NCBI GenBank assembly: GCA_021787595.1
Contig: JAJYLQ010000008.1
Coordinates: 1 to 64,000 of the forward strand
Direction of reading: 5' to 3'
Length of the DNA stretch: 64,000 nucleotides
Source: Chloroflexota bacterium
GTDB lineage: Bacteria > Chloroflexota > Anaerolineae > Anaerolineales > Villigracilaceae
The translations under genes and the position numbers were made by a program. Positions 3,398-49,887 of the stretch are shown here, piece by piece. The stretch's first letter is position 1; each line of letters opens with the position of its first letter. The notes below the pieces were generated by a model. That model searched no databases and was not told where the DNA came from. It saw only the letters and a program-made list of their open reading frames with translations.

Positions 3398-4438
3398 TCA
3401 CCTGTTCGGTCTGGTTTGTCCTTCGGCGAGAGCCTGAACCAACTGCCAGCACGCTTCGTTGACCGGCGTTGGGATGTGATGCTGTTTCCCCGCGCGCGTG
3501 ACCGCGCCGCAAATCGCGTCGATCTCGGTCGGCGCGCCGCGCGTCACATCCTGCAGCATGGACGAATGGTTGGCCGCCGTTTTGCGCGCCACATCTTCCA
3601 CCGCAGCAACCGGATCGCTGAACGGCAGTTCGACTTTTTCCGCGGACGCGACGGCCGCGGCTTCTTCGGCCAACGCGCGCATCAAGACACGCGCCGCGGG
3701 ACGTTTGAGCAATTCACCGTTTGGCACGCGCAACAACGCAGTCAACGGATTGATGGCCGCGTTGATGACGAGTTTGCCCCACACAAGCGACCGCGCATCT
3801 TCGACGATTTCCACATTGAACTTTGCCAGCCTTAGCGCTTCTTCCACCGGACCCAAAGCGGGATGCGCTTCGATGGAGACGATTCCTTCGCCCCCGGCTT
3901 TGACCAGCCCCGGCCCAAGCAGCGTTGCGCCGGTCGTTGTTGTTCCCAATGCGACGCGCGAAATTTTTTTTGGCATGTCACCCTGAGTGGCGCGAGGCGC
4001 CACGAAGGGTCTCAAAATAACATTCCATTGACTGTTTTCTGAGATTCTTCGTGGCGCCGAAGCGCCACTCAGAATGACATGTTCATTTAAAGATTTTTCA
4101 AGAATCCCTTTGTTGCCGATTCCGTTTTGGAGTGTGATCGCGAGTCCATCCCCGGCGAGACATTCTGCGAGCTGACGCGCGGCGCGTTCCGTCTGCCATG
4201 ATTTCACCAGCACGATGGCATACTTTGCGCCTCGGCATTCGGTAGGATCATCTGTCGCGTAGACTGCATAATTCTGCTCGAAGCCGTCCGCTCCCACCAG
4301 CCGCGCGCCACCCTGGCACAAAGCATCTATTCCGTCTTTCCATGTGCCGAGCATCGTGACGCGCTGGCCGCTGGCAGTCAGGCGCGCCGCGAAAAGCGTC
4401 GCCAGCGCGCCCGTGCCAACGATGAGAATGTCAGTCAT
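3398..4438 (-). CDS. panE: 2-dehydropantoate 2-reductase (ketopantoate reductase) carrying an in-frame repeat-derived insertion
   Basis: ILIVGTGALATLFAARL, LQNGIGNKGILE, GTTTTGATLLGPG, KLVINAAINPLTALL; next to panB. Confidence 0.9.
   Translation of the reverse strand: MTDILIVGTGALATLFAARLTASGQRVTMLGTWKDGIDALCQGGARLVGADGFEQNYAVYATDDPTECRGAKYAIVLVKSWQTERAARQLAECLAGDGLAITLQNGIGNKGILEKSLNEHVILSGASAPRRISENSQWNVILRPFVAPRATQGDMPKKISRVALGTTTTGATLLGPGLVKAGGEGIVSIEAHPALGPVEEALRLAKFNVEIVEDARSLVWGKLVINAAINPLTALLRVPNGELLKRPAARVLMRALAEEAAAVASAEKVELPFSDPVAAVEDVARKTAANHSSMLQDVTRGAPTEIDAICGAVTRAGKQHHIPTPVNEACWQLVQALAEGQTRPNR
3976..4079. repeat. TGTCAnnCTGAG...CTCAGAATGACA palindromic repeat inside panE
   Basis: TGTCACCCTGAGTGGCGCGAGGCGCCACGAAG...CTTCGTGGCGCCGAAGCGCCACTCAGAATGACA; ends match intergenic copies at 4446, 20249, 23035 and 32024. 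Confidence 0.85.
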
Positions 4439-4445
4439 ATTTCAA

Positions 4446-4557
4446 TGTCATTCTGAGGAGCGAAGCGACGAAGAATCTCGACATGCTTCGACAACCGACA
4501 AAGAACGACGCTCTTCGCTGCGCTCACATCGTCCCGATGTCCTTCGGGAGAGTGACA
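4446..4557. repeat. TGTCATTCTGAG-family repeat between panE and panB
   Basis: TGTCATTCTGAGGAGCGAAGCGACGAAGAATCTC...GGGAGAGTGACA. Confidence 0.8.
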
Positions 4558-5457
4558 TTAATAGATTTCCTTTTGCAATGCCTGCCACTCTTTCTCATCC
4601 ATCTCGACGGAATGTCCCAGCGCGGGGAACGCGCGGCTTTGCACATCGGAGATATATTCGCTGAAAGCGCGCTGCATCTCGGCGTGGAAGTCCGCATATT
4701 TCTTGACGAACTTCGGCGTGAAGCGGTCGAACAATCCGAGCAGGTCATGCGTGACGAGAACTTGCCCGTCACAGCCGACGCCGGCGCCAATGCCGATGGT
4801 TGGTATGGAGAGTTTCTTCGAAATCAATTGTGCCAAACGCGCCGGAACCGATTCGAGCACGATGCTGAAACAACCGGCTTCTTCGAGCAGGAGCGCATCT
4901 TCGACCAATCGCTTCGCGGCGGACGCGGTCTTGCCCTGCGGACGGAATCCGCCGAGCTGGTTGACCGATTGCGGCGTGAGGCCGAGATGTCCCATGACGG
5001 GAATCCCCGCGCCGACGATGGCGCGTACGGCTTCGACGCGTTCGCGTCCGCCTTCGAGCTTGACCGCGTCCATGCCGGCTTCCTGCAAGAATCGTCCGGC
5101 GTTGCGAACCGCTTCCTCGGTCGAGGCTTGATACGACATGAACGGCATGTCGCCGATCAGCAGCGCGAACTTCGCGCCGCGCGAAACGGCTTTGCTGTGA
5201 TGGATCATATCGTCCATCGTGACCGGCAGCGTGGTCTGGTATCCAAGTACGACCATCCCAAGCGAATCGCCGACGAGGATCGAATCGATACCGGCCTGAT
5301 CCTCTGCCAGCGCGGTGGGATAGTCATACGCGGTCAGCATGGTGATCGGTTCGCCGCGTTCCTTCTTTTGACGAAACGCGGCCGTCGTCACCTTCTTGCG
5401 TTGAGGCATAGCTGTGCTGACAGCGGCGGCAGTTAAAACGGGAGCGATAGTAGACAT
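4558..5457 (-). CDS. panB: 3-methyl-2-oxobutanoate hydroxymethyltransferase
   Basis: ITMLTAYDYPTALAEDQAGIDSILVGDSLGMVVLGYQTTLPVTMDDMIHHSKAVSRG, GHLGLTPQSVNQLGGFRPQGK. Confidence 0.97.
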   Translation of the reverse strand: MSTIAPVLTAAAVSTAMPQRKKVTTAAFRQKKERGEPITMLTAYDYPTALAEDQAGIDSILVGDSLGMVVLGYQTTLPVTMDDMIHHSKAVSRGAKFALLIGDMPFMSYQASTEEAVRNAGRFLQEAGMDAVKLEGGRERVEAVRAIVGAGIPVMGHLGLTPQSVNQLGGFRPQGKTASAAKRLVEDALLLEEAGCFSIVLESVPARLAQLISKKLSIPTIGIGAGVGCDGQVLVTHDLLGLFDRFTPKFVKKYADFHAEMQRAFSEYISDVQSRAFPALGHSVEMDEKEWQALQKEIY

Positions 5458-9064: not shown

Positions 9065-10762
9065 ATGATCTTGTTGCTTGCTGTTACATCCTTCGGTATT
9101 TTGTTGTCATTATTGTATGGATGGATGCTGGAATTTGCTGCCGTCAAATTCTTAAAGTTAAACGAAGACCATGATCTTTATTTTTCCATCACGATTCTCT
9201 CAGGTTTGGCGCTGCTCTCCGGTTTATTGGGAATATGGTCGTTTTATCACGGAATCGGCACACGAGCAGTAGTATTCTTTTTATTGCTGGCTTTGTTGTC
9301 GCTTATCGTGACATGGAAATATGTCTTCGTTCGATTGGAAATCCTTGCCCAACAACTTAAATCCTTGAGCGTTTTGTCATGGCTCTTCTTTGTTGCAAGT
9401 ACAATCTTTGCGCTTTATATTGCCGCGGCTTCATCCCCAACTTATGATACGGGTCTGTATCACGCGCAAGCTATCCGTTGGATAGAAAATTTCCGCGTCG
9501 TCCCCGGCTTGGCGAATTTACATATCAGGTTTGGTTTCAACTCGAATATATTTTTGCTGGCCGCATTTTGGGGACTCGCTGGTTTTGGATGGCATTTGTA
9601 TCAAGTCTCTGGTCTAATCATTTTTCTTTGCATGATACTATATGGCCTATACTTGGCGGAAAAGCTTCGCAAGGGTTTGACATTCGGTGGAATAGCAGCA
9701 TTGGGGTTCTTCATTTGGCTTCTTTTTAATGGACGCGTCATTTCATGGTTGGCTTCACCCGCCACTGACCTGCCCGCCGCTCTAATTACCTGGCTCATTT
9801 TTCTTCTGGCATTTGAGAAGGTTGAAGCGGGCAATAAGCAACTGGATTTGCATTTAATAGCTATAGTTATTCTGTGTCTTTTTGATGTAACGATCAAACT
9901 TTCTTCGCTTCCCATTCTTTTAATCCCCATATATTTTCTTTGGGAAGCTCGTGCCTCATTTTCTTTGAAGAATGCGATTGCGCTTGTCATACTATCGTCG
10001 GCTGTATTTCTTTCCTGGGTTGCCAGAAATGTCGTGTTGACTGGCTATCTTTTATTCCCATTCGCACAGCTTGATATTTTCCGATTTGACTGGAAGGTTC
10101 CGCCTGAATCAGTAAAACAGATCACAGAGATTATTACAAGCTGGGCCCGTATTCCATACCTGGATTTCAACCTGGTTTTATTCATGCCGCTCGGACAATG
10201 GCTACCGATATGGTATCAGGCACTATCGGCAAACGATTCCTTTTTGCTTGTCGGAATACTGGTTGGAATTATTCCGCTGATAATTTTGATTGCCGTTGAT
10301 AAAGAAACAGCCAGAAAAGTTCGGAGTTACACGCCAGTTTATGCGGTCAGCATAGTTGGCGCAGTTTTCTGGTTTGCTCAATCGCCGTCGCCGCGATTCG
10401 GATATGGATTTTTGGTTCCTTTACTCTTATTTCTTTACACTCCTTTCATTGCCTTGCTTTTGGAATTGGTAAAATACTCGCGAGGATGGTTTGCCTTGAT
10501 CGCCCAATCTCTTTTGACTATCCTCGTTCTGATCGCCGTCATACGGATTCCGTTGAAATCCTGGGAACATTATATGAATCTCGTTACACCATATCCGCAA
10601 GTTGTTACCAGGACTGTTAACCTGGGAAGTCAAACTTTGTTCATTCCTGTGTCTGGCGATCAATGCTGGTATGATGCATTCCCTTGCACACCTTCAGAAA
10701 TTTCCGGCTTGGCGATGCGTGAATCAAGTTTGCAAGACGGTTTTTATATTTCACAGAAATAA
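9065..10762 (+). CDS. Polytopic membrane protein, probable GT39/PMT-like glycosyltransferase
   Basis: Many TM segments; SPTYDTGLYHAQAIRWIENFRVVPGLANLHIRFGFNSN motif. Confidence 0.65.
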   Translation: MILLLAVTSFGILLSLLYGWMLEFAAVKFLKLNEDHDLYFSITILSGLALLSGLLGIWSFYHGIGTRAVVFFLLLALLSLIVTWKYVFVRLEILAQQLKSLSVLSWLFFVASTIFALYIAAASSPTYDTGLYHAQAIRWIENFRVVPGLANLHIRFGFNSNIFLLAAFWGLAGFGWHLYQVSGLIIFLCMILYGLYLAEKLRKGLTFGGIAALGFFIWLLFNGRVISWLASPATDLPAALITWLIFLLAFEKVEAGNKQLDLHLIAIVILCLFDVTIKLSSLPILLIPIYFLWEARASFSLKNAIALVILSSAVFLSWVARNVVLTGYLLFPFAQLDIFRFDWKVPPESVKQITEIITSWARIPYLDFNLVLFMPLGQWLPIWYQALSANDSFLLVGILVGIIPLIILIAVDKETARKVRSYTPVYAVSIVGAVFWFAQSPSPRFGYGFLVPLLLFLYTPFIALLLELVKYSRGWFALIAQSLLTILVLIAVIRIPLKSWEHYMNLVTPYPQVVTRTVNLGSQTLFIPVSGDQCWYDAFPCTPSEISGLAMRESSLQDGFYISQK

Positions 10763-10763
10763 A

Positions 10764-11654
10764 ATGCCCAATCCTCCTGTCTGTAGCTACGAAGGCTCCG
10801 ATTATCAATCCTCCTTTTGGGATAAAGGCGGACGCGAGTACGAGGATTGCGTCGAGGCCATCGCGCTCAAACGCATGCTTCCCAAAAGCGGGCATCTCTT
10901 GCTGGAGCTCGGCGCGGGCGCGGGGCGCAACACGCCGCGTTATCTCGGCTTTGAGCGGATTGTCCTGCTCGATTATTCGCGCACGCAGTTGGAACAGGCG
11001 CAGGCGCGGCTCGGCAAAGCGGATAAATATATTTATGTCGCGGCGGATGTTTATCGCCTGCCGTTTATTGACGGATTGTTCGATGCAGCCACGATGATCC
11101 GCACTTTGCATCACATGGCGGACGCGCCGAAAGCGTTGGGACAAGTAAAGAATGTGCTCCAACCCGGCGGGACATTTATTTTGGAATTTGCCAACAAGCT
11201 GAATCTCAAGTCTATTTTGCGTTACTGGCTGAGAGGGCAGACGTGGAGTCCATTTACGCTGGAGCCGGTTGAATTCGCCGAACTCAATTTTGATTTTCAT
11301 CCGAAGGCTGTGTTTGGATGGCTGAAAGATTTGGGCTTTACGATTGAAAAAAAATTGGCCGTTTCACATTTTCGCGTAGGCTTGTTCAAAAAAATTATCC
11401 CCACTTCGATATTGGTTTTCTTTGATTCGATCTTTCAATGGACAGGTGCGTGGTGGCAGTTGACACCGAGTGTGTTTGTTCGCTGTAGGGGCGGATGGCC
11501 ATCCGCCCCTACACGTACAGGAGGATTTTTCAAATGTCCCGAATGCGGACACGCGCCGTTGGAAGATAAAATGGATTATCTTGAATGTTCAAGCTGCAAA
11601 CGCAAGTGGGGAGTCAAAGATGGGATTTATGATTTCAGGGAACCAATGAGATAA
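10764..11654 (+). CDS. Class I SAM-dependent methyltransferase with C-terminal zinc ribbon
   Basis: LLELGAGAGRNTPRYL, DAATMIRTLHHM, LQPGGTFILEFANK; C-terminal CPECG...CSSCKRKW; start ATG at 10764. Confidence 0.85.
   Translation: MPNPPVCSYEGSDYQSSFWDKGGREYEDCVEAIALKRMLPKSGHLLLELGAGAGRNTPRYLGFERIVLLDYSRTQLEQAQARLGKADKYIYVAADVYRLPFIDGLFDAATMIRTLHHMADAPKALGQVKNVLQPGGTFILEFANKLNLKSILRYWLRGQTWSPFTLEPVEFAELNFDFHPKAVFGWLKDLGFTIEKKLAVSHFRVGLFKKIIPTSILVFFDSIFQWTGAWWQLTPSVFVRCRGGWPSAPTRTGGFFKCPECGHAPLEDKMDYLECSSCKRKWGVKDGIYDFREPMR
11484..11513. repeat. Perfect 30-bp palindrome inside the methyltransferase gene
   Basis: TGTAGGGGCGGATGGCCATCCGCCCCTACA; read in frame as CRGGWPSAPT; GTAGGGGC ends recur at 21970 and 51812. 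Confidence 0.9.
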
Positions 11655-11657
11655 TTG

Positions 11658-12392
11658 TTATTGTTTTTCGATCACCCAAAAATGCGACAACCCAAAAATC
11701 TTCAGCGGTGTTTTTTCTAAAAACTGTAATATGCCGCGCAGGACTTTCCCAAACGCGCCGAAGCGGGCAATGATGTTATCGTATGCCCCAAAGATGATTG
11801 TGCGTTCTATGAACTTAACAGGCAAACCATCGAATAATTTTTCCAAATCGCGGCTCGAATAGACACGCACATGCGGAGCAAGTTTATCGCGCCAGACGCG
11901 CGGCAGATAATTCACAAAAAGTTTGTTGCCGAAATAATATTTGCCTTTCCAATACATGCCGTGTGTTTCGAATAGATAACCGCGGTTCGGGCAGAACAAA
12001 ACGATTCGTCCGCCGGGCCTTAGGACGCGGATCATCTCGCAGATGGCAGCGCGGTCGCTCTGGACGTGTTCGATTACCTCGTGACTCAGGATCAGGTCAA
12101 TCGTCCCGGAAGGAAGCGGGACAAATTCACCAGCCGCGTTGAAGATGCGCGGGGAATTTGTCCCGGCTTCGGACGCGCGTTCAAAGTCGAATTCCAATCC
12201 GAAAATTTTTCCGCCAAACGGCGCGAGATGTTCAACGTACATTCCCACGCCGCATCCATTTTCAAGGATGTTGCCTTGGATGCGTTCGCTCGCGGCGCGG
12301 ACGATCATTTCGAGTCGGCGCTGCTGGCCTGCGCGCCAAACGTAGGACGGTTCGCCGCGCAGCGCGGCTTTCTGCATATCCCGATTTGTCAT
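11658..12392 (-). CDS. Class I SAM-dependent methyltransferase
   Basis: NILENGCGVGMYVEHLAPFGGKIFGLEFD, DLILSHEVIEHVQSD, RVLRPGGRIVLFCPNRG. Confidence 0.88.
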   Translation of the reverse strand: MTNRDMQKAALRGEPSYVWRAGQQRRLEMIVRAASERIQGNILENGCGVGMYVEHLAPFGGKIFGLEFDFERASEAGTNSPRIFNAAGEFVPLPSGTIDLILSHEVIEHVQSDRAAICEMIRVLRPGGRIVLFCPNRGYLFETHGMYWKGKYYFGNKLFVNYLPRVWRDKLAPHVRVYSSRDLEKLFDGLPVKFIERTIIFGAYDNIIARFGAFGKVLRGILQFLEKTPLKIFGLSHFWVIEKQ

Positions 12393-14520: not shown

Positions 14521-14598
14521 CCCTCACCCCCTTCTCCTTTCCCAACCCTTCGACTTCGCTCAGGGCAAGTTTTGGGAGAGGGGTGCAGAGGTGAGGGG
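14521..14598. repeat. CCCTCACC/CCCAACCCTTCGACTTCGCTCAGGGCAAG palindromic repeat, copy A
   Basis: Core CCCAACCCTTCGACTTCGCTCAGGGCAAGTTTTGGGAGAGG recurs inverted at ~45050 inside mevalonate kinase. Confidence 0.85.
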
Positions 14599-14608
14599 AT
14601 AAACAAAG

Positions 14609-20238: not shown

Positions 20239-20248
20239 GACGTAGGCA

Positions 20249-20379
20249 TGTCATTCTGAGCGACCGGAGGGAGCGAAGAATCTCGCTTTTTCAGTTGGTT
20301 TTCCATTTAAAAAACTCTGAGATTGCTTCGTGGCGCCGGGTTTCGATACGTGGCGCCAAAGGCGCCACTCGCAATGACA
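20249..20379. repeat. TGTCATTCTGAG/TGTCATTGCGAG-family repeat
   Basis: TGTCATTCTGAGCGACCGGAGGGAGCGAAGAATCTC...GTGGCGCCAAAGGCGCCACTCGCAATGACA. Confidence 0.85.
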
Positions 20380-20505
20380 TATCCGGTTGTGCGAAGTTTG
20401 AATACTTTGTCTATAAATGGATTCGCGGCATTCGTTCATTCGTGAAATTAGCGTTAAATCTTTTCCCCGCAGGTTATAATCCGCCCGACTGCCAGAGGAG
20501 ACCCC

Positions 20506-21969: not shown

Positions 21970-22031
21970 GTAGGGGCATAGCGGGACGGAAAATGATTTT
22001 GATCGTCGCGCAGCCTGCTATGCCCCTACAC
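21970..22031. repeat. GTAGGGGCATAGC...GCTATGCCCCTAC inverted-repeat element between convergent genes
   Basis: Terminal inverted repeat read directly; related ends at 11485 and 51812. Confidence 0.75.
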
Positions 22032-23014: not shown

Positions 23015-23034
23015 GTTACCTCCAAGGATTGATA

Positions 23035-23158
23035 TGTCATTGCGAAGCGGCAAAGCCGCTGTGGCAATCTCATGTAACAATCAGTTGCCTGTTTGAGAAG
23101 ATTGCTTCGTGGCGCCTTTGGCGCCACTACTCAACCACCAGCGCCACTCGCAATGACA
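23035..23158. repeat. TGTCATTGCGA-family palindromic repeat
   Basis: TGTCATTGCGAAGCGGC...GTGGCGCCTTTGGCGCCAC...CTCGCAATGACA. Confidence 0.85.
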
Positions 23159-25512: not shown

Positions 25513-25810
25513 AAAGCAACGAGTGATAAATTATTGAAAGAACGCAACGCACTCACAAAGCCGCTGAATTTCTCTTTGCAACTTCGTCGGCCAACTCACT
25601 TCTCTCTACCCTCTGCCTCATGGTTTTCGCAAAGTCGCTTGACGGGAATTGAAGTCTGTGGCGTAGCAGGAGCAAATAAGGGCGGGAACAGCGAATTTTC
25701 GCTTTCTGCACGAAACCAAAGCCTGCAAATCCGGACCTTGCGAAAGCCATGCCCTCTGCCTTTTCCATGCTTGACATGCCTTTGCCTTGCCCGTATAATC
25801 CCCGTCGCCT

Positions 25811-25882
25811 TCCTCGCTAGCTCAACGGCAGAGCGGGCGGCTGTTAACCGCTAGGTTCGAGGTTCAAATCCTCGGCGAGGAG
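25811..25882 (+). tRNA. tRNA-Asn (anticodon GTT)
   Basis: TCCTCGC...GCGAGGA acceptor stem, GCGG CTGTTAA CCGC anticodon arm, GGTTCAAATC T loop; no encoded CCA. Confidence 0.93.
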
Positions 25883-25893
25883 CTTTTGGGCAA

Positions 25894-25933
25894 AAAAATT
25901 TCGTCCTTACTCAGGTGTAAGGACGAAATTTTT
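25894..25933. terminator. Strong hairpin terminator (potentially bidirectional) after tRNA-Asn
   Basis: AAAAATTTCGTCCTTAC TCAGGT GTAAGGACGAAATTTTT. Confidence 0.85.
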
Positions 25934-26728
25934 GTTTATAGCTGGGAAAGCTGCTGAATTTGAATTAATGATTTTCGCTGCATGTATGTTGGCGCCACGA
26001 AGCAATCTCCTGTTTTCACTCCTGGCGGGCGCGGATGTACACGGAAAAAGCCTTTGAGAATCCGCGCTTTCCGCGTCCAAAGTAGAAAGAGTTGTACATT
26101 GGGTAATCGATATCCAAAACTGCAGATATCCCGCTTGGTACAAAGGATCAGGTTTTCTCAATTTTCTTTGACCTTTGCCGCTCTACAGATTTTAAGTCTT
26201 AAGGGCCTGTAAAAGGATAAGCTCCCTCAGCCATCATAGAACGATGTTGTTGCGAAGCTTTGGCGGCTGCTGGCTGGGAGAACGCGACGGCGTAGGCGTC
26301 TAGGACGCGGCTTGCTCCATCACGTAGGCTTGCATCGTTGCGTGGACGATGGCATCCCATCGCAACTTGTTGTGAGATTTCGGGCTGGAAGACGGCTTGA
26401 TCGGGCGGGCGGAAGAAGTAGATGACGCGCGTGCGGAAATCGTCGAGACACCATGCGAGGCGCTCATGCACAGGTAATACACGCCAACCGCAAGGACAAC
26501 CAGCACAGGTACGGCAAGAATACTGGTAAGGCGTTTGGACTGGAAAAGATTATAAAACAAAAAGATTTTGGAAATTGAGCGCGTACAGTAGAAATGGATT
26601 GGCGCAATAACGAGAATTTGTTGAAGCAATTTAAGGTATAAGATAGAAAGCAGGTTCGGCGCGCACAGCACCTGAGTTCACTAATGTGATTGCAGGGATG
26701 GGATTCGTTGCATTCACTGTGAGGAGTG

Positions 26729-32023: not shown

Positions 32024-32143
32024 ATATCATTGCGAGGAAAGAAATGACGAAGCAATCTCGTGTTTGATGCTTGCTGAGATTGCCACACTGAGAGAACACA
32101 GTGCTTCGTCGTGACGCTTTCAGCGCCACTCCTCGCAATGACA
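32024..32143. repeat. TGTCATTGCGAG-family repeat upstream of dnaK
   Basis: ATCATTGCGAGG...GAAGCAATCTCG...CAGCGCCACTCCTCGCAATGACA. Confidence 0.75.
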
Positions 32144-32322
32144 TTCGAAATTTTGCATAGCATACACGAGGGATGCAAGAAAAACGTTAACGGTATGTAG
32201 AAAAAATATCAGCCCCAGCCCCCTCTGTCCTTCGGACACCTTTCCCAAATACGATGATTCACATTTTGAATCTGTATACAAAATTTTGATTGTCGTATTT
32301 GGGGGAGGCTGGGTGGGGGCTA

Positions 32323-41314: not shown

Positions 41315-42256
41315 ATGCACGCCACTCATCATAAACAGGGAGCCAGACATTGGCTTTGGACGCTCTCTGTGCCATTGCTGCTGCTGTTCAATGCTTGCGG
41401 ACCTGCGAATGCCAACGCCACTCCCACGCTGAGCGTTGAGGATATCTTCACGCTGGCGGCCCAAACACTTTCCGCCCAGCAGGCCACGCAATTGGCTCTC
41501 ACTCCGCCAACGAGCACGCCTCTCCCGCCAACTCCATTGCCCACGCTGCCGCCGCCTTCTCCCGTCGCGACATTTCCTTCCTTTACCACCCCAACGCTGG
41601 GAAGTGTTGGAGGCGCCTGCGACAGCGCAATCTATGTTGCGGACGTCACCATTCCCGATGGCACGACCCTGACTCCGGGACAGCAATTCCAGAAGACGTG
41701 GAAGCTCCTGAACAATGGTTCCTGCACCTGGAGTTCCAGCTACAGCCTCGCGTTTTCCAGCGGCGATCTCATGGGAGGCACAACGAGCGCCGTGACGGTT
41801 CCGGTGCCGCCGGGCAACCAGACCAACATGTCGGTCACTCTCACCGCGCCGTCCACCAACGGCACATACACGGGCACATGGCGAATGCAGAATGCTTCTG
41901 GTCAGCCTTTTGGCAACTTCATCACTGTGGTCATCAAGGTTGTTGCCGGCAGCACGGTGACCGCAGGCCCCAGTCCTACATCCGCGCCGGGCATGGTCAC
42001 GATCTCAGGTACGTTAAATGTTTCTCAATTTACCATCAATTTTTCAAGCGCCAGCAGCACACCCGTTGTCACCTACAATGGAAACAACTACTCCTTTACT
42101 GTGCCTATAGGTTGGTCAGGCAACATTTACCCATCCAAAGGAAAGTGGACCTTTAGCCCTCCGAACCAATACTTTTCGAATGTGACTTCGAGTCAGACTC
42201 AAAACTTTACAGCGATTACTGACACTCAAACTCCTACTTCTACTCCTACACCCTAA
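41315..42256 (+). CDS. Lipoprotein with Thr/Pro linker and NBR1-type Ig-like domain
   Basis: LFNACGPA lipobox; VADVTIPDGTTLTPGQQFQKTWKLLNNGSCTWSSSYSLAFSSGD...VPVPPGNQTNMSVTLTAPSTNGTYTGTWRMQNASGQPFG. Confidence 0.85.
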   Translation: MHATHHKQGARHWLWTLSVPLLLLFNACGPANANATPTLSVEDIFTLAAQTLSAQQATQLALTPPTSTPLPPTPLPTLPPPSPVATFPSFTTPTLGSVGGACDSAIYVADVTIPDGTTLTPGQQFQKTWKLLNNGSCTWSSSYSLAFSSGDLMGGTTSAVTVPVPPGNQTNMSVTLTAPSTNGTYTGTWRMQNASGQPFGNFITVVIKVVAGSTVTAGPSPTSAPGMVTISGTLNVSQFTINFSSASSTPVVTYNGNNYSFTVPIGWSGNIYPSKGKWTFSPPNQYFSNVTSSQTQNFTAITDTQTPTSTPTP

Positions 42257-42259
42257 CAT

Positions 42260-42428
42260 TACAGCGCAAAGTTAGAGCATTGAGGGTTCTGCTCATGGCT
42301 TTTCTACCGTTTTCGCCCTCATCCCCAACCCTTCCCCCGAATGGGGAAGGGAGTCTCCTCTCCCTTTGGGAGAGGGAAAGGGTGAGGGAGAATTGGCAGG
42401 GAACGATTGCTCGACCTTGCGCTGTAAT
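42260..42428. mobile_element. MITE-like element, copy 1 (~170 bp, TIR ATTACAGCGCAA)
   Basis: ATTACAGCGCAAAGTTAGAG...CGACCTTGCGCTGTAAT; near-identical inverted copy at 46269-46439; no coding capacity. Confidence 0.85.
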
Positions 42429-42468
42429 ACTAAAGTGCGTATGCAAATTCAAAGCCATTCATGGAACG

Positions 42469-44362: not shown

Positions 44363-45346
44363 TTAATGAATTTGTGTAATGATAACTCTTTTCGCTCCAG
44401 AACTTATACAGGCATCAGCAGCGATACCTGCTTTGACGGCATTGACCAGCGCGATCATATTGCCGCCGCGCCCGCCGCCGGACATCTTGGCGCCCAGCGC
44501 GCCGGCGCTGCGCGCCGCGTCAACCAGGCGATCCAATTCCGGTGATGAGACGGTCATCCCCTTCAGTAATTCGTGATTTTGATTCATCAATTTGCCAATC
44601 AATTCCCATTCTCCGTTCTCTATTCTCCTTCTTGCCTCTTTTGCGATCCCGCCGATCTCATCGAACGCCTTTTCCCATTTTTCTTTGTCCGCCTCCCATA
44701 GTTTGCGGACATCGCCGACAGCTTCCCTGGTCGGCGCGGAGATTCCGGTGTCGGCGATCATAATTGTAAATGGTTTGCCGACTTTGAAGATTTCAATGGG
44801 CTGACCTTTGACAAAGAAAACAGGCCTGGCATAAGTGATAACAGTGTTGTCAATGCCGGAGGGCGTGCCGTGGTGAAGTTTTTCGATCTCGAATGCCATC
44901 GAACTTATTTGTTCGTCTGATAACGGGTTGTGGAGGAACGAAGAGAGAGCGCGTATCAATGCGACAGACACCGCCGCGCCGGAGCCGAGCCCGGATGCAA
45001 CGGGAATGGTGGACGAAATTTTTATTTCAACCCCCTCCCCCCTATCTCCTCTCCCAAAACTTGCCCTGAGCGAAGTCGAAGGGTTGGGAGAGGGGCACAG
45101 GGGGGAGGAGACAGGGTGAGGGAAAAACTCACGAATGATGGCGGCCAGCGGATGGTCGGAGGGGAGCGAATTCAGTTCGGCGTGAAGGTCAATATCCGGG
45201 GCGTTGATCCAAATCCCTGCGCGGGATGAGTCTGAGACTTCGGCATCCGCATGAACTTGTGCCACAGGGACAGCCAGCGCGGGCCGTCCGTAAACAACAG
45301 CGTGTTCGCCAAAGAGGATGATCTTGCCGGGCGCGGAGGCTTTCAC
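44363..45346 (-). CDS. mvk: Mevalonate kinase (GTG start), with repeat-derived in-frame insertion
   Basis: VKASAPGKIILFGEHAVVYGRPALAVPV; IPVASGLGSGAAVSVALIRAL; HGTPSGIDNTVITY; LGAKMSGGGRGGNMIAL. Confidence 0.93.
   Translation of the reverse strand: MKASAPGKIILFGEHAVVYGRPALAVPVAQVHADAEVSDSSRAGIWINAPDIDLHAELNSLPSDHPLAAIIREFFPHPVSSPLCPSPNPSTSLRASFGRGDRGEGVEIKISSTIPVASGLGSGAAVSVALIRALSSFLHNPLSDEQISSMAFEIEKLHHGTPSGIDNTVITYARPVFFVKGQPIEIFKVGKPFTIMIADTGISAPTREAVGDVRKLWEADKEKWEKAFDEIGGIAKEARRRIENGEWELIGKLMNQNHELLKGMTVSSPELDRLVDAARSAGALGAKMSGGGRGGNMIALVNAVKAGIAADACISSGAKRVIITQIH
45030..45119. repeat. CCCAACCCTTCGACTTCGCTCAGGGCAAG palindromic repeat, copy B, inside mevalonate kinase
   Basis: Inverted copy of the core at 14540-14580; encodes SSPLCPSPNPSTSLRASFGRGDRGEG in frame. 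Confidence 0.88.
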
Positions 45347-46224
45347 GACGAAGGAGGAGAAAGATAAAAGACAGCCAGCACGGCAATCGCCCAAAGGAAC
45401 AAGGAGACCTGGAAGGGGCGGTCCGTGAGAAGAATCTCTTCGGGCTCGCCTCCGCTTTTTTCGACTTCGATCAGATAAAGATAACGGAAGATGGCGTACA
45501 TCACGAAGGGAATGGTCAGCATCATGCTGTGATTGGCGGGAACATTCGGGGCGGAGAACGTGTAAAGCGAGTATGCCACGATGGTGGTTCCCGATACAAT
45601 CATGATGTATTGATCGAGCAATGGAATGGTGTAGCCTTCGAGCACCTTGCGGTGCGAACCGGCATCGTCCGAGAGCAGGGCGAGCTCAGCGCGGCGTTTG
45701 CCGAAGCCCAGATAAAGCGCGAGCAGAGTCATCACCACGTACAGCCACGGCGAGAATCGCTGGACATCGATCAAGGAGACACCCCCTTCCACGCGCAGCA
45801 CAAAGCCAGCCGCGAGAACGAGCACATCGAGGATCGGAATGTGCTTGAGCCAGCGCGAGTAGGCGAGGTTGAGAAGGAAATAGGCTGCCAGAACCAGGTC
45901 GAATTCCGGGTCCATCAGAAAGCCTAAAATCAGCGTGACGGCGACCAGTGCGACCCCGGCGATCCATGCGGCGTGGACCGAAAGCTGGCCCGACGGGAGC
46001 GGACGATTCTTCTTTGCCGGATGCTGGCGGTCAGCCTCGATGTCAACGATGTCGTTGAAGATGTATACACTGCTCGAGACCAGGCAGAAGAGGAAGAAGC
46101 CTGCCAGCGTATGCAGGAAAGCCGAGACATGGAATAACTGCTTATCGAAAACCAGTGCGGCAAAGATAAAGATGTTCTTCGACCACTGGCGCGGGCGCAT
46201 GGTTTTTAACAGGGCCGTAAGCAT
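45343..46224 (-). CDS. UbiA-family prenyltransferase, decaprenyl-phosphate phosphoribosyltransferase-like
   Basis: LLKTMRPRQWSKNIFIFAALVFDKQL; SSSVYIFNDIVDIEADRQHPAKKNRPLPSG; stop overlaps the mevalonate kinase GTG by 4 bp. Confidence 0.88.
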   Translation of the reverse strand: MLTALLKTMRPRQWSKNIFIFAALVFDKQLFHVSAFLHTLAGFFLFCLVSSSVYIFNDIVDIEADRQHPAKKNRPLPSGQLSVHAAWIAGVALVAVTLILGFLMDPEFDLVLAAYFLLNLAYSRWLKHIPILDVLVLAAGFVLRVEGGVSLIDVQRFSPWLYVVMTLLALYLGFGKRRAELALLSDDAGSHRKVLEGYTIPLLDQYIMIVSGTTIVAYSLYTFSAPNVPANHSMMLTIPFVMYAIFRYLYLIEVEKSGGEPEEILLTDRPFQVSLFLWAIAVLAVFYLSPPSS

Positions 46225-46268
46225 GGGGCTATGATAATCCAAATTTGCTTTTCTTTTATATTTTTAGT

Positions 46269-46439
46269 ATTACAGCGCAAGGTCGAACAATCGTTCCCTG
46301 CCAATTCTCCCTCACCCTTTCCCTCTCCCGAAGGGAGAGGAGACTCCCTTCCCCATTCGGGGGAAGGGTTGGGGATGAGGGCGAAAACGGTAGGAAAGCC
46401 ATGAGCAGAACCCTCAAAACTCTAACTTTGCGCTGTAAT
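46269..46439. mobile_element. MITE-like element, copy 2 (inverted relative to copy 1)
   Basis: ATTACAGCGCAAGGTCGA...CTCTAACTTTGCGCTGTAAT; aligns to the reverse complement of 42260-42428. Confidence 0.85.
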
Positions 46440-46594
46440 ATTAGGCTCTCCCGTTTTTGCCGGGCAACATCCGCGGAATGCGGCGGACTTTCCGCAGACC
46501 TCACAGATCATGCAGAAAAATCTGTGAAATCTGTGGATAAGTTTCGGGTTCATTGGGAATTGCCGTGATGGACCAGCATATTTGGCGGCATGAT

Positions 46595-49065: not shown

Positions 49066-49887
49066 ATGCCCAGGACCCGTCTTGACGTGCTGCTCCTCGA
49101 ACGCGGGCTGGCCGAATCGCGCGCCAAAGCGCAGGCTTTGATCATGGCCGGGCAGGTCCGCGTGAACGGTCAGACCGCGCTCAAAGCGGCAGCTGCGGTC
49201 GAGCCTGACGCGACGCTGACGGTTGATTCGGGCCCGCGCTTCGTCTCACGCGGCGGCGAAAAGTTGGACGCGGCTCTCGAAACATTTGGCATAAATGTAA
49301 ATGGTCTGGTCTGTGCGGATGTGGGCGCCTCGACCGGCGGCTTCACCGATTGTCTGCTCCAGCGCGGCGCGGCCAAAATTTATGCAATTGACGTGGGCAA
49401 GGGCATCCTGCACTGGAAACTTCGCAACGACCCGCGCGTCGTTGTCATGGAAGAGACCAACGCGCGCTTTGTCGAATCTCTCCCGGAGCCGGTTTCACTC
49501 GTGACGATTGACGCGTCGTTTATATCTTTGAAAATAATTCTTCCTGTGGTAAAGAAGTGGTTCTTTCCTCTTTCTTCTTTCGCAAATGAAGGAAAGATGA
49601 AAGAAGAAAGAAGTGATGTAGTCGCATTGGTCAAACCCCAATTCGAAGCCGGGAGAAAAGATGTCTCGCGCGGCGACGGCGTGATCCGCGACTCGAACAT
49701 TCACAAACAAGTTCTGCTGGATGTGTTGAGCTTCGCACAAGTTCAGGGATTTGGCATCCGCGGATTGATCCGGAGTCCGCTTCTCGGTCCGAAAGGGAAC
49801 GCGGAGTTCCTGGCGCGGCTGGACAATGCCCTGGATGAAAACCTGAATCTAAATGAGTTGGTTGACCAGGTCCTGCCGGCACCATGA
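49066..49887 (+). CDS. tlyA: TlyA family rRNA (cytidine-2'-O)-methyltransferase/hemolysin-like
   Basis: RLDVLLLERGLAESRAKAQALIMAGQVRVNG; FVSRGGEKLDAALETF; ADVGASTGGFTDCLLQRGA; VALVKPQFEAGR. Confidence 0.95.
   Translation: MPRTRLDVLLLERGLAESRAKAQALIMAGQVRVNGQTALKAAAAVEPDATLTVDSGPRFVSRGGEKLDAALETFGINVNGLVCADVGASTGGFTDCLLQRGAAKIYAIDVGKGILHWKLRNDPRVVVMEETNARFVESLPEPVSLVTIDASFISLKIILPVVKKWFFPLSSFANEGKMKEERSDVVALVKPQFEAGRKDVSRGDGVIRDSNIHKQVLLDVLSFAQVQGFGIRGLIRSPLLGPKGNAEFLARLDNALDENLNLNELVDQVLPAP
49553..49614. repeat. Imperfect palindrome/low-complexity insertion inside tlyA
   Basis: CTTTCCTCTTTCTTCTTTC GCAAAT GAAGGAAAGATGAAAGAAGAAAG; encodes FFPLSSFANEGKMKEERSD before VALVKPQFEAG. Confidence 0.65.

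Follow-up and report, generated by a model that had tools for sequence, protein, structure and literature searches.

In-frame palindromic repeats of unrelated families at one panE codon and in other housekeeping genes of Anaerolineales (Chloroflexota)

Introduction

Palindromic repeats that are read as part of a protein were first described from Rickettsia, in which Rickettsia palindromic elements (RPEs) lie in frame in many metabolic genes (Ogata et al. 2000, 2002, reviewed in PMC10969869). Scattered REPs within open reading frames (ORFs) of several species were added later, often as inverted dimers coding for 20 to 30 residues, with one precedent in recB, where two Xanthomonas species carry unlike REPs at nearly one position (PMC3733652). 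GTAG repeats are recorded for Chloroflexi as well, with no case of this kind there in the sections consulted (PMC3733652). Coding palindromes as such are thus already known, and here they are described from core enzymes of an unrelated, environmental lineage. Relative to the literature searched, what appears to be new is the lineage together with how many unrelated families were found at one codon, how they are nested, and how many housekeeping loops carry them.

The window, i.e., the whole stretch of DNA analyzed, comprises 64,000 nucleotides of a Chloroflexota genome labeled G000; its closest congener is labeled G005 (also L057).

A palindromic element in frame in panE

The panE gene (2-dehydropantoate 2-reductase; positions 3398 to 4438, reverse strand) is an intact ORF of 346 amino acids, as supported by the reading frame, profiles, and predicted structure, and carries a 104-bp palindromic element with the ends TGTCAyyCTGAG...CTCAGrrTGACA at 3976 to 4079. 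An earlier note made from the sequence alone had placed the repeat at exactly these coordinates; it starts with TGTCACCCTGAG and stops with CTCAGAATGACA, the panE ORF is open throughout, and the translated stretch quoted in the note (VILSGASAPRRISENSQWNVILRPFVAPRATQGD) was right. The copy is built of two half-elements in inverted orientation, and each of these forms its own hairpin. The first, recognized from the sequence itself, lies at 3976 to 4013 (TGTCACCCTGAGTGGCGCGAGGCGCCACGAAGGGTCTC) and the second, inverted relative to it and identified from sequence and fold, at 4041 to 4079 (GAGATTCTTCGTGGCGCCGAAGCGCCACTCAGAATGACA). Read along the panE coding strand, the first half-element is ATTCT-GA-GTGGCGC-TTCG-GCGCCAC-GA-AGAAT, with a tandem G-A mismatch in its stem, and a very stable hairpin (−92.4 kcal/mol for 204 nt) was predicted. 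Alignment with G005 showed flanks that were 88 to 93% identical and exactly codons 120 to 159 missing (40 residues), so that panE is longer by 120 nt and not by 104. The additional segment, approximately placed in the alignment at 3962 to 4081 (reverse strand), is made up of the element and 16 nt outside it that keep the frame and may be left over from an earlier insert.

A relative of the element with one perfect TGTCATTCTGAG end at 4446 occupies the intergenic region between panE and panB at 4440 to 4558, and panB, an adjoining pantothenate gene identified by profile matches, follows at 4558 to 5457 (reverse strand). Further intergenic copies lie at 20239 to 20381, 23033 to 23138, and 32102 to 32144, in agreement with the intergenic copies that had been claimed for the window. 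These last three form a sister subfamily, whose ends are TGTCATTGCGAG and whose inner motif is changed correspondingly (GAAGCAATCTC versus GAAGAATCTC).

The protein scored 226.6 bits against the NCBIfam model apbA_panE (cutoff, 141), and Pfam agreed on 2-dehydropantoate 2-reductase; the family profile, both domains, and the fold of PanE/ApbA were all found. AlphaFold returned a mean pLDDT of 86, with values of ≥90 at 246 of the 346 residues and values below 50 solely at the insert (residues 122 to 156) and the last residues. The model thereby predicts a disordered loop on an otherwise normal PanE fold, between a helix (109 to 125) and a strand (162 to 167). Foldseek searches found PanE structures, the best being 3hwr (TM score of 0.94 by target length). 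Simple counting between the window and its congener gave a pN/pS of ∼0.11 to 0.13 away from the insert site, with a local spike of amino acid change just before the insert, and residues invariant across the PanE alignment were retained. Other PanE-like genes in the genome are distant paralogues (25 to 31% identity). The dispersed repeat is thus in frame within a protein-coding and apparently functional panE, as the earlier note had it; of the two findings named there as speaking against this, relatives carrying the residues in the absence of the repeat and a pseudogene, neither was seen: homologues do not have the residues where the repeat is missing, and the gene is under purifying selection. 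These features suggest that the insert is translated and enzyme function retained.

The TGTCA family in its own genome

The 12-base end TGTCANNCTGAG was counted 60 + 52 = 112 times in the 4.08-Mb genome versus 2 + 1 = 3 for a reversed-pattern control. With the whole 104-bp sequence as the query, 31 places were matched in ∼300 kb of own-genome DNA, most of which had been fetched around known TGTCA copies, versus 0 for shuffled queries. When the ends in the window and in 60 fetched regions were grouped, 35 paired elements resulted; their lengths, 46 to 278 bp, showed no preference for multiples of three. The panE copy was the only one of these 35 in a conserved gene; a half-element was also located in a DNA glycosylase gene, and the family is otherwise almost entirely intergenic. 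Other TGTCA ends within ORFs were mostly attributable to spurious ORFs or chance 12-mers, and a Pfam domain was found in only one of the four such ORFs tested, the glycosylase. At least one of the six frames was open in 33 of the 35 elements; hence, open read-through is not rare.

The arrangement of two REP-like halves in inverted orientation within one long hairpin, alongside halves that occur singly at other places, resembles the REPIN/RAYT system (PMC3116915). However, none of the six Y1_Tnp-like genes in the genome had a TGTCA copy within 1.5 kb, and no mobilizing enzyme could be linked to the elements among these six. The Y1-transposase-like protein L208 (own genome, C41 near 25767 to 25952) contains long in-frame repeats (VGADLRVCPDGS..GGHIGPPQPIPPQ...), apparently of another coding-repeat family. 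MITEs (PMC10969869, PMC5896051) share with the TGTCA elements a short, non-autonomous structure, terminal inverted repeats, and occasional in-frame fusion. In contrast to MITEs, target site duplications were not evident in the 35 paired copies (two at 2 nt, where 2.2 were expected, and none at 3 to 9 nt). Intragenic GTAG/CGTC REPs offer the likeness of REPs in ORFs and the recB precedent (PMC3733652). The element in the window differs in that it ends in TGTCAyyCTGAG; the tetranucleotide GTAG/CGTC was absent from the palindrome ends of the 35 copies, all of which end in TGTCAyyCTGAG, the end by which they were selected. A separate GTAGGGGC palindrome does exist in the window, apart from the TGTCA elements. 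A further difference from these REPs is the recurrence described below, which extends over many genomes and several genes and brings at least three families to a single codon.

Unrelated repeats at the same codon of panE in relatives

PanE sequences from public genomes of Anaerolineales/Chloroflexota, most of them metagenome-assembled genomes (MAGs) and only partially sampled at the family level, were compared across the insert site. The segment from QNGxGN to the GA of GxTTxGA is exactly 28 residues long in 67 of 78 rows and 52 to 65 residues long in the other 11, compared with 68 in the window. In-frame inserts of 24 to 40 residues were present at the same codon in 12 of 80 Anaerolineales PanE proteins, all of them multiples of three and free of stop codons. 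In insert bearers, the insert is preceded by L[DN] and followed by SRV (or TRV), whereas the insert-free rows shown have LG; all twelve bearers carry Asp/Asn where Gly stands in those rows. On a PanE tree built with the insert columns removed, insert presence needs seven state changes, at least five of them forced by starred branches, and the candidate topology placing all insert bearers in one clade was rejected (p-AU, 1.03e−5).

At least three unrelated repeat families were identified at this codon, namely the TGTCA family, the CCACAGAG/CTCTGTGG palindromes, and the GACTCCAACGTC hairpins. In the family-level search, CCACAGAG...CTCTGTGG-type palindromes were found in PanE of seven genomes (two congeners and five others), two other hairpins were found at the site in G011, and the window had the TGTCA element. 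The CACAGAG repeat CCACRGAGNNCRCNGAG is abundant in some of these relatives, with 125 occurrences in G059, 57 to 73 in three more genomes of the genus of G059, 21 to 35 in two congeners, 7 in G033, and only 3 in G000 (controls, 0 throughout), and the G011 insert had 40 matches in the G011 genome. The right arm of the CACAGAG repeat was read, in the cases seen, as SVxSVAK-like residues, while one alternative frame of its common form ends in TAA, as is evident from the sequence itself. Within genes of G059, the family was located in those for a GT4 glycosyltransferase, MurE, and Elp3 and in a degenerate PanE copy. The CACAGAG family of the sister genera is a better analogue of the RPEs than is the TGTCA family.

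Several inserts bear signs of turnover. The G011 insert begins with DNQVLTAKN, resembling DQPVLTTER of the CACAGAG insert of a relative, before running into new hairpins, as if an earlier palindrome had largely given way to a second one; it looks as if the left arm of a CACAGAG insert had been kept. For panE of the window, a CACAGAG remnant is weakly hinted at by the additional 16 nt and by the flank TGCCAAAAAAAATTTCGCG, compared with TGGCTAAGAAAAAGTCGCG of G004, in which case the TGTCA element would have been the later arrival. Divergence between the window and its congener rose to 0.44 and 0.36 in the 45-nt intervals preceding and following the insert, respectively, versus 0.02 to 0.18 in the other 16 intervals. 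In addition, L060 and L066, each amid insert-free neighbors, share REILSR[FY]LD and related inserts. Short-tract recombination that spread or removed the insert would best account for both the divergence spikes and the sharing by L060 and L066. The divergent flank is the right one in G005 and the left one in G000, and since either partner's flank could be foreign, the direction of exchange in the lineage of the window is ambiguous.

In-frame palindromes in other housekeeping genes

CACAGAG palindromes also lie in frame in genes of G059 for MurE, Elp3, and the GT4 glycosyltransferase (families assigned by NCBIfam), the palindromes occupying a linker in MurE and a loop in Elp3. Compared with solved homologues, MurE had 30 rather than 6 residues between aligned domains, and a gap was also shown for Elp3. 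Across ten genomes of the genus of G059, the MurE segment varied from 37 to 63 residues and contained at least two palindrome types. The corresponding Elp3 segment measured 39 to 64 residues in the 27 genomes of the family from which it was extracted, and in 21 of these 27 its DNA formed an unusually stable hairpin (z ≤ −2 against mononucleotide shuffles). Insert classes in Elp3, assigned by eye from the printed sequences, were the CACAGAG, CCCTCACCCC-CTCTCCC...GGGAGAG, CCCCCCTTT, CCTAACCCCC, and GGACTCC types. In the genome of the window itself, the 64-residue loop segment of Elp3 (L313, C43:41368 to 43065) is a composite of about three palindromes, again in frame.

Dispersal of these sequences was assessed in sampled DNA. 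The CTCTCCC type had 12 further matches in G000, and the MurE insert of G088 had 4 in its own genome. Samples of 60 to 80 kb yielded nothing for the Elp3 inserts of G066, G050, G098, G040, G093, and G021, and larger samples pointed faintly to dispersal for G050 and G040, with none found for G021. HhH-GPD DNA glycosylases (L192:1563 to 2459, reverse strand, and L251) carry half-elements at the same loop in two genera, and those of G000 and G011 differ in sequence.

These genes share with RPE-bearing genes the in-frame placement of palindromes in unrelated housekeeping genes, the addition of a hydrophilic, fold-compatible stretch, and the presence of several families per genome, and the panE insert has one of the features that mark RPEs, a palindrome in frame within an otherwise conserved ORF. 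They differ in the host phylum (Chloroflexota), which is unrelated, and in the alternation of unrelated families, with nesting, at the same codon of orthologues. A further difference is that the TGTCA family is mostly intergenic; the comparison with RPEs was by description. The Rickettsia-like behavior raised in the earlier note proved widespread in the bacterial family (panE, murE, elp3, GT4, mevalonate kinase, and DNA glycosylase), yet it does not extend to the TGTCA family in general, with 1 of 35 paired copies inside a conserved gene. Because the defining features of RPEs, GTAG REPs, and classical MITEs were found only in part, the TGTCA element is assigned to none of these groups.

Origin of the inserts

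The reading that we hold with considerable confidence is that a non-autonomous palindromic repeat occupies a permissive, exposed loop of PanE, where it probably entered or replaced an older insert, and that alleles were partly exchanged by recombination. It builds on direct observations of repeat identity, frame, absence from relatives, several families at the codon, purifying selection, and the predicted fold. The insert would be a member of the dispersed TGTCA family of its own genome, in a REPIN-like layout, placed in the putative exposed loop that connects the helix following QNGxGN with the strand preceding GxTTxGA, and would be translated as ∼35 extra, probably disordered residues on an enzyme that stays functional. 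This loop may have held unrelated palindromes in turn within Anaerolineales. The lineage probably carried a CACAGAG-type insert before the TGTCA element entered or replaced it, leaving the 16 nt, and alleles may have moved or been lost between species, partly via short tracts. The elements are presumed to be copied to new places by an enzyme; insertions that kill a needed gene would be lost, while those in frame in exposed loops would survive. A loop that has already become longer and disordered would take up further insertions more easily, and nesting and recurrence could follow with no targeting. The loops of MurE, Elp3, GT4, mevalonate kinase, and DNA glycosylase may have been subject to the same process. 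Overall, selfish palindromic elements that are tolerated in exposed loops, insert into older inserts, and are partly spread by short-tract recombination offer the most likely explanation. An unlikely extension is that such codons act as landing pads, with a targeted process (structure-directed transposition or repeat-repeat recombination) swapping resident palindromes in frame throughout the family; if so, the loop sequence would evolve via repeat turnover and not by point mutation.

A single ancient insertion that was inherited vertically and precisely lost many times, with sequence differences reflecting drift of one repeat, would explain the L[DN] and SRV/TRV flanks common to all bearers, as against LG in insert-free rows, and the apparent orthology of the six g17-group inserts of the CACAGAG type. 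We nevertheless regard it as improbable: the site holds three unrelated inserts, every one of which corresponds to repeats that are numerous in the respective genome, the single clade was rejected by the tree, and L060 and L066, isolated among insert-free neighbors, have one allele, suggesting transfer and not retention. It is just as improbable that the recurrence reflects a selected function of the insert (mRNA-hairpin regulation, oligomerization, or a partner-binding loop) and not tolerance. The use of the same codon, the stability of the predicted hairpin, and a pS in the g17 inserts below that of their flanks (0.30 versus 0.55) are compatible with such a function, but the low pS fits youth or exchange with resident repeats as well, and pN in these inserts exceeds that of the flanks (0.18 versus 0.115). 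Moreover, repeat family, length (24 to 40 amino acids), and composition vary freely, most relatives have no insert, and the loop is predicted to be disordered.

Decay of panE, with the frame open by chance, could be suspected from a large insertion in a core enzyme and from the spike of amino acid change just before it. The low pN/pS elsewhere, the retained invariant residues, the adjoining panB, the confidently predicted PanE fold, the unbroken frame of all 12 inserts, and the finding that the other PanE-like genes are distant paralogues make a pseudogene very unlikely. An assembly or binning artefact in a MAG is least credible of all. Repeats are a classic cause of misassembly, but the inserts come from independent MAGs and different sites, stand in frame at the same codon with the frame kept every time, and occur in four genes of G059, a single-contig genome. 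The finding of unrelated repeats at exactly this codon, and of others in loops of further essential enzymes, indicates that protein loops here repeatedly absorb repetitive DNA. Recurrence at one codon is equivalent to a set of insertion experiments done by nature on a single loop, and it can now be tested whether such repeats are tolerated, targeted to loops, or raw material for new protein segments. It is also a warning that loop insertions in MAG-derived proteins can be repeat DNA.

Further palindromes within the window

Comparison with other DNA of the same genome, mostly taken from around TGTCA copies, identified nine dispersed-repeat regions in the window, of which those in panE and mevalonate kinase were the only cases in verified genes. 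The mevalonate kinase gene (GHMP family; 44366 to 45394, reverse strand) has a 79-bp CTCTCCC...GGGAGAG palindrome with a nested CCCTGAGCGAAGTCGAAGGG in frame at 45033 to 45111, and the protein has 55 residues between aligned parts versus 25 in 4hac. A relative of this palindrome is intergenic at 14521 to 14599 after nusA; the region from 14535 to 14576 lies just past the end of nusA, with ORFs solely on the opposite strand.

A hairpin at 49569 to 49611, in frame in tlyA (FtsJ/S4 methyltransferase; 49066 to 49884, forward strand), is a probable further case, as solved homologues are ∼13 residues shorter there. Methyltransferase genes supplied weaker ones. A perfect GTAGGGGC...GCCCCTAC palindrome at 11484 to 11513, in frame in a methyltransferase ORF (10602 to 11651, forward strand), sits in a linker that leads into a Cys-rich (zinc-ribbon-like) tail and is a possible case; a longer relative is intergenic at 21970 to 22029. 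The CGGGACAAATTC...GAATTTGTCCCG hairpin at 12117 to 12165, inside a methyltransferase gene (11661 to 12392, reverse strand), was left uncounted, as no second copy was present in the sampled DNA. Separately, 42251 to 42451 and 46263 to 46533 contain a pair of inverted repeats of ∼183 bp that are 97% complementary and separated by 3.8 kb; 14 places resembling them were present in sampled own-genome DNA, and they are possibly the ends of a larger mobile element.
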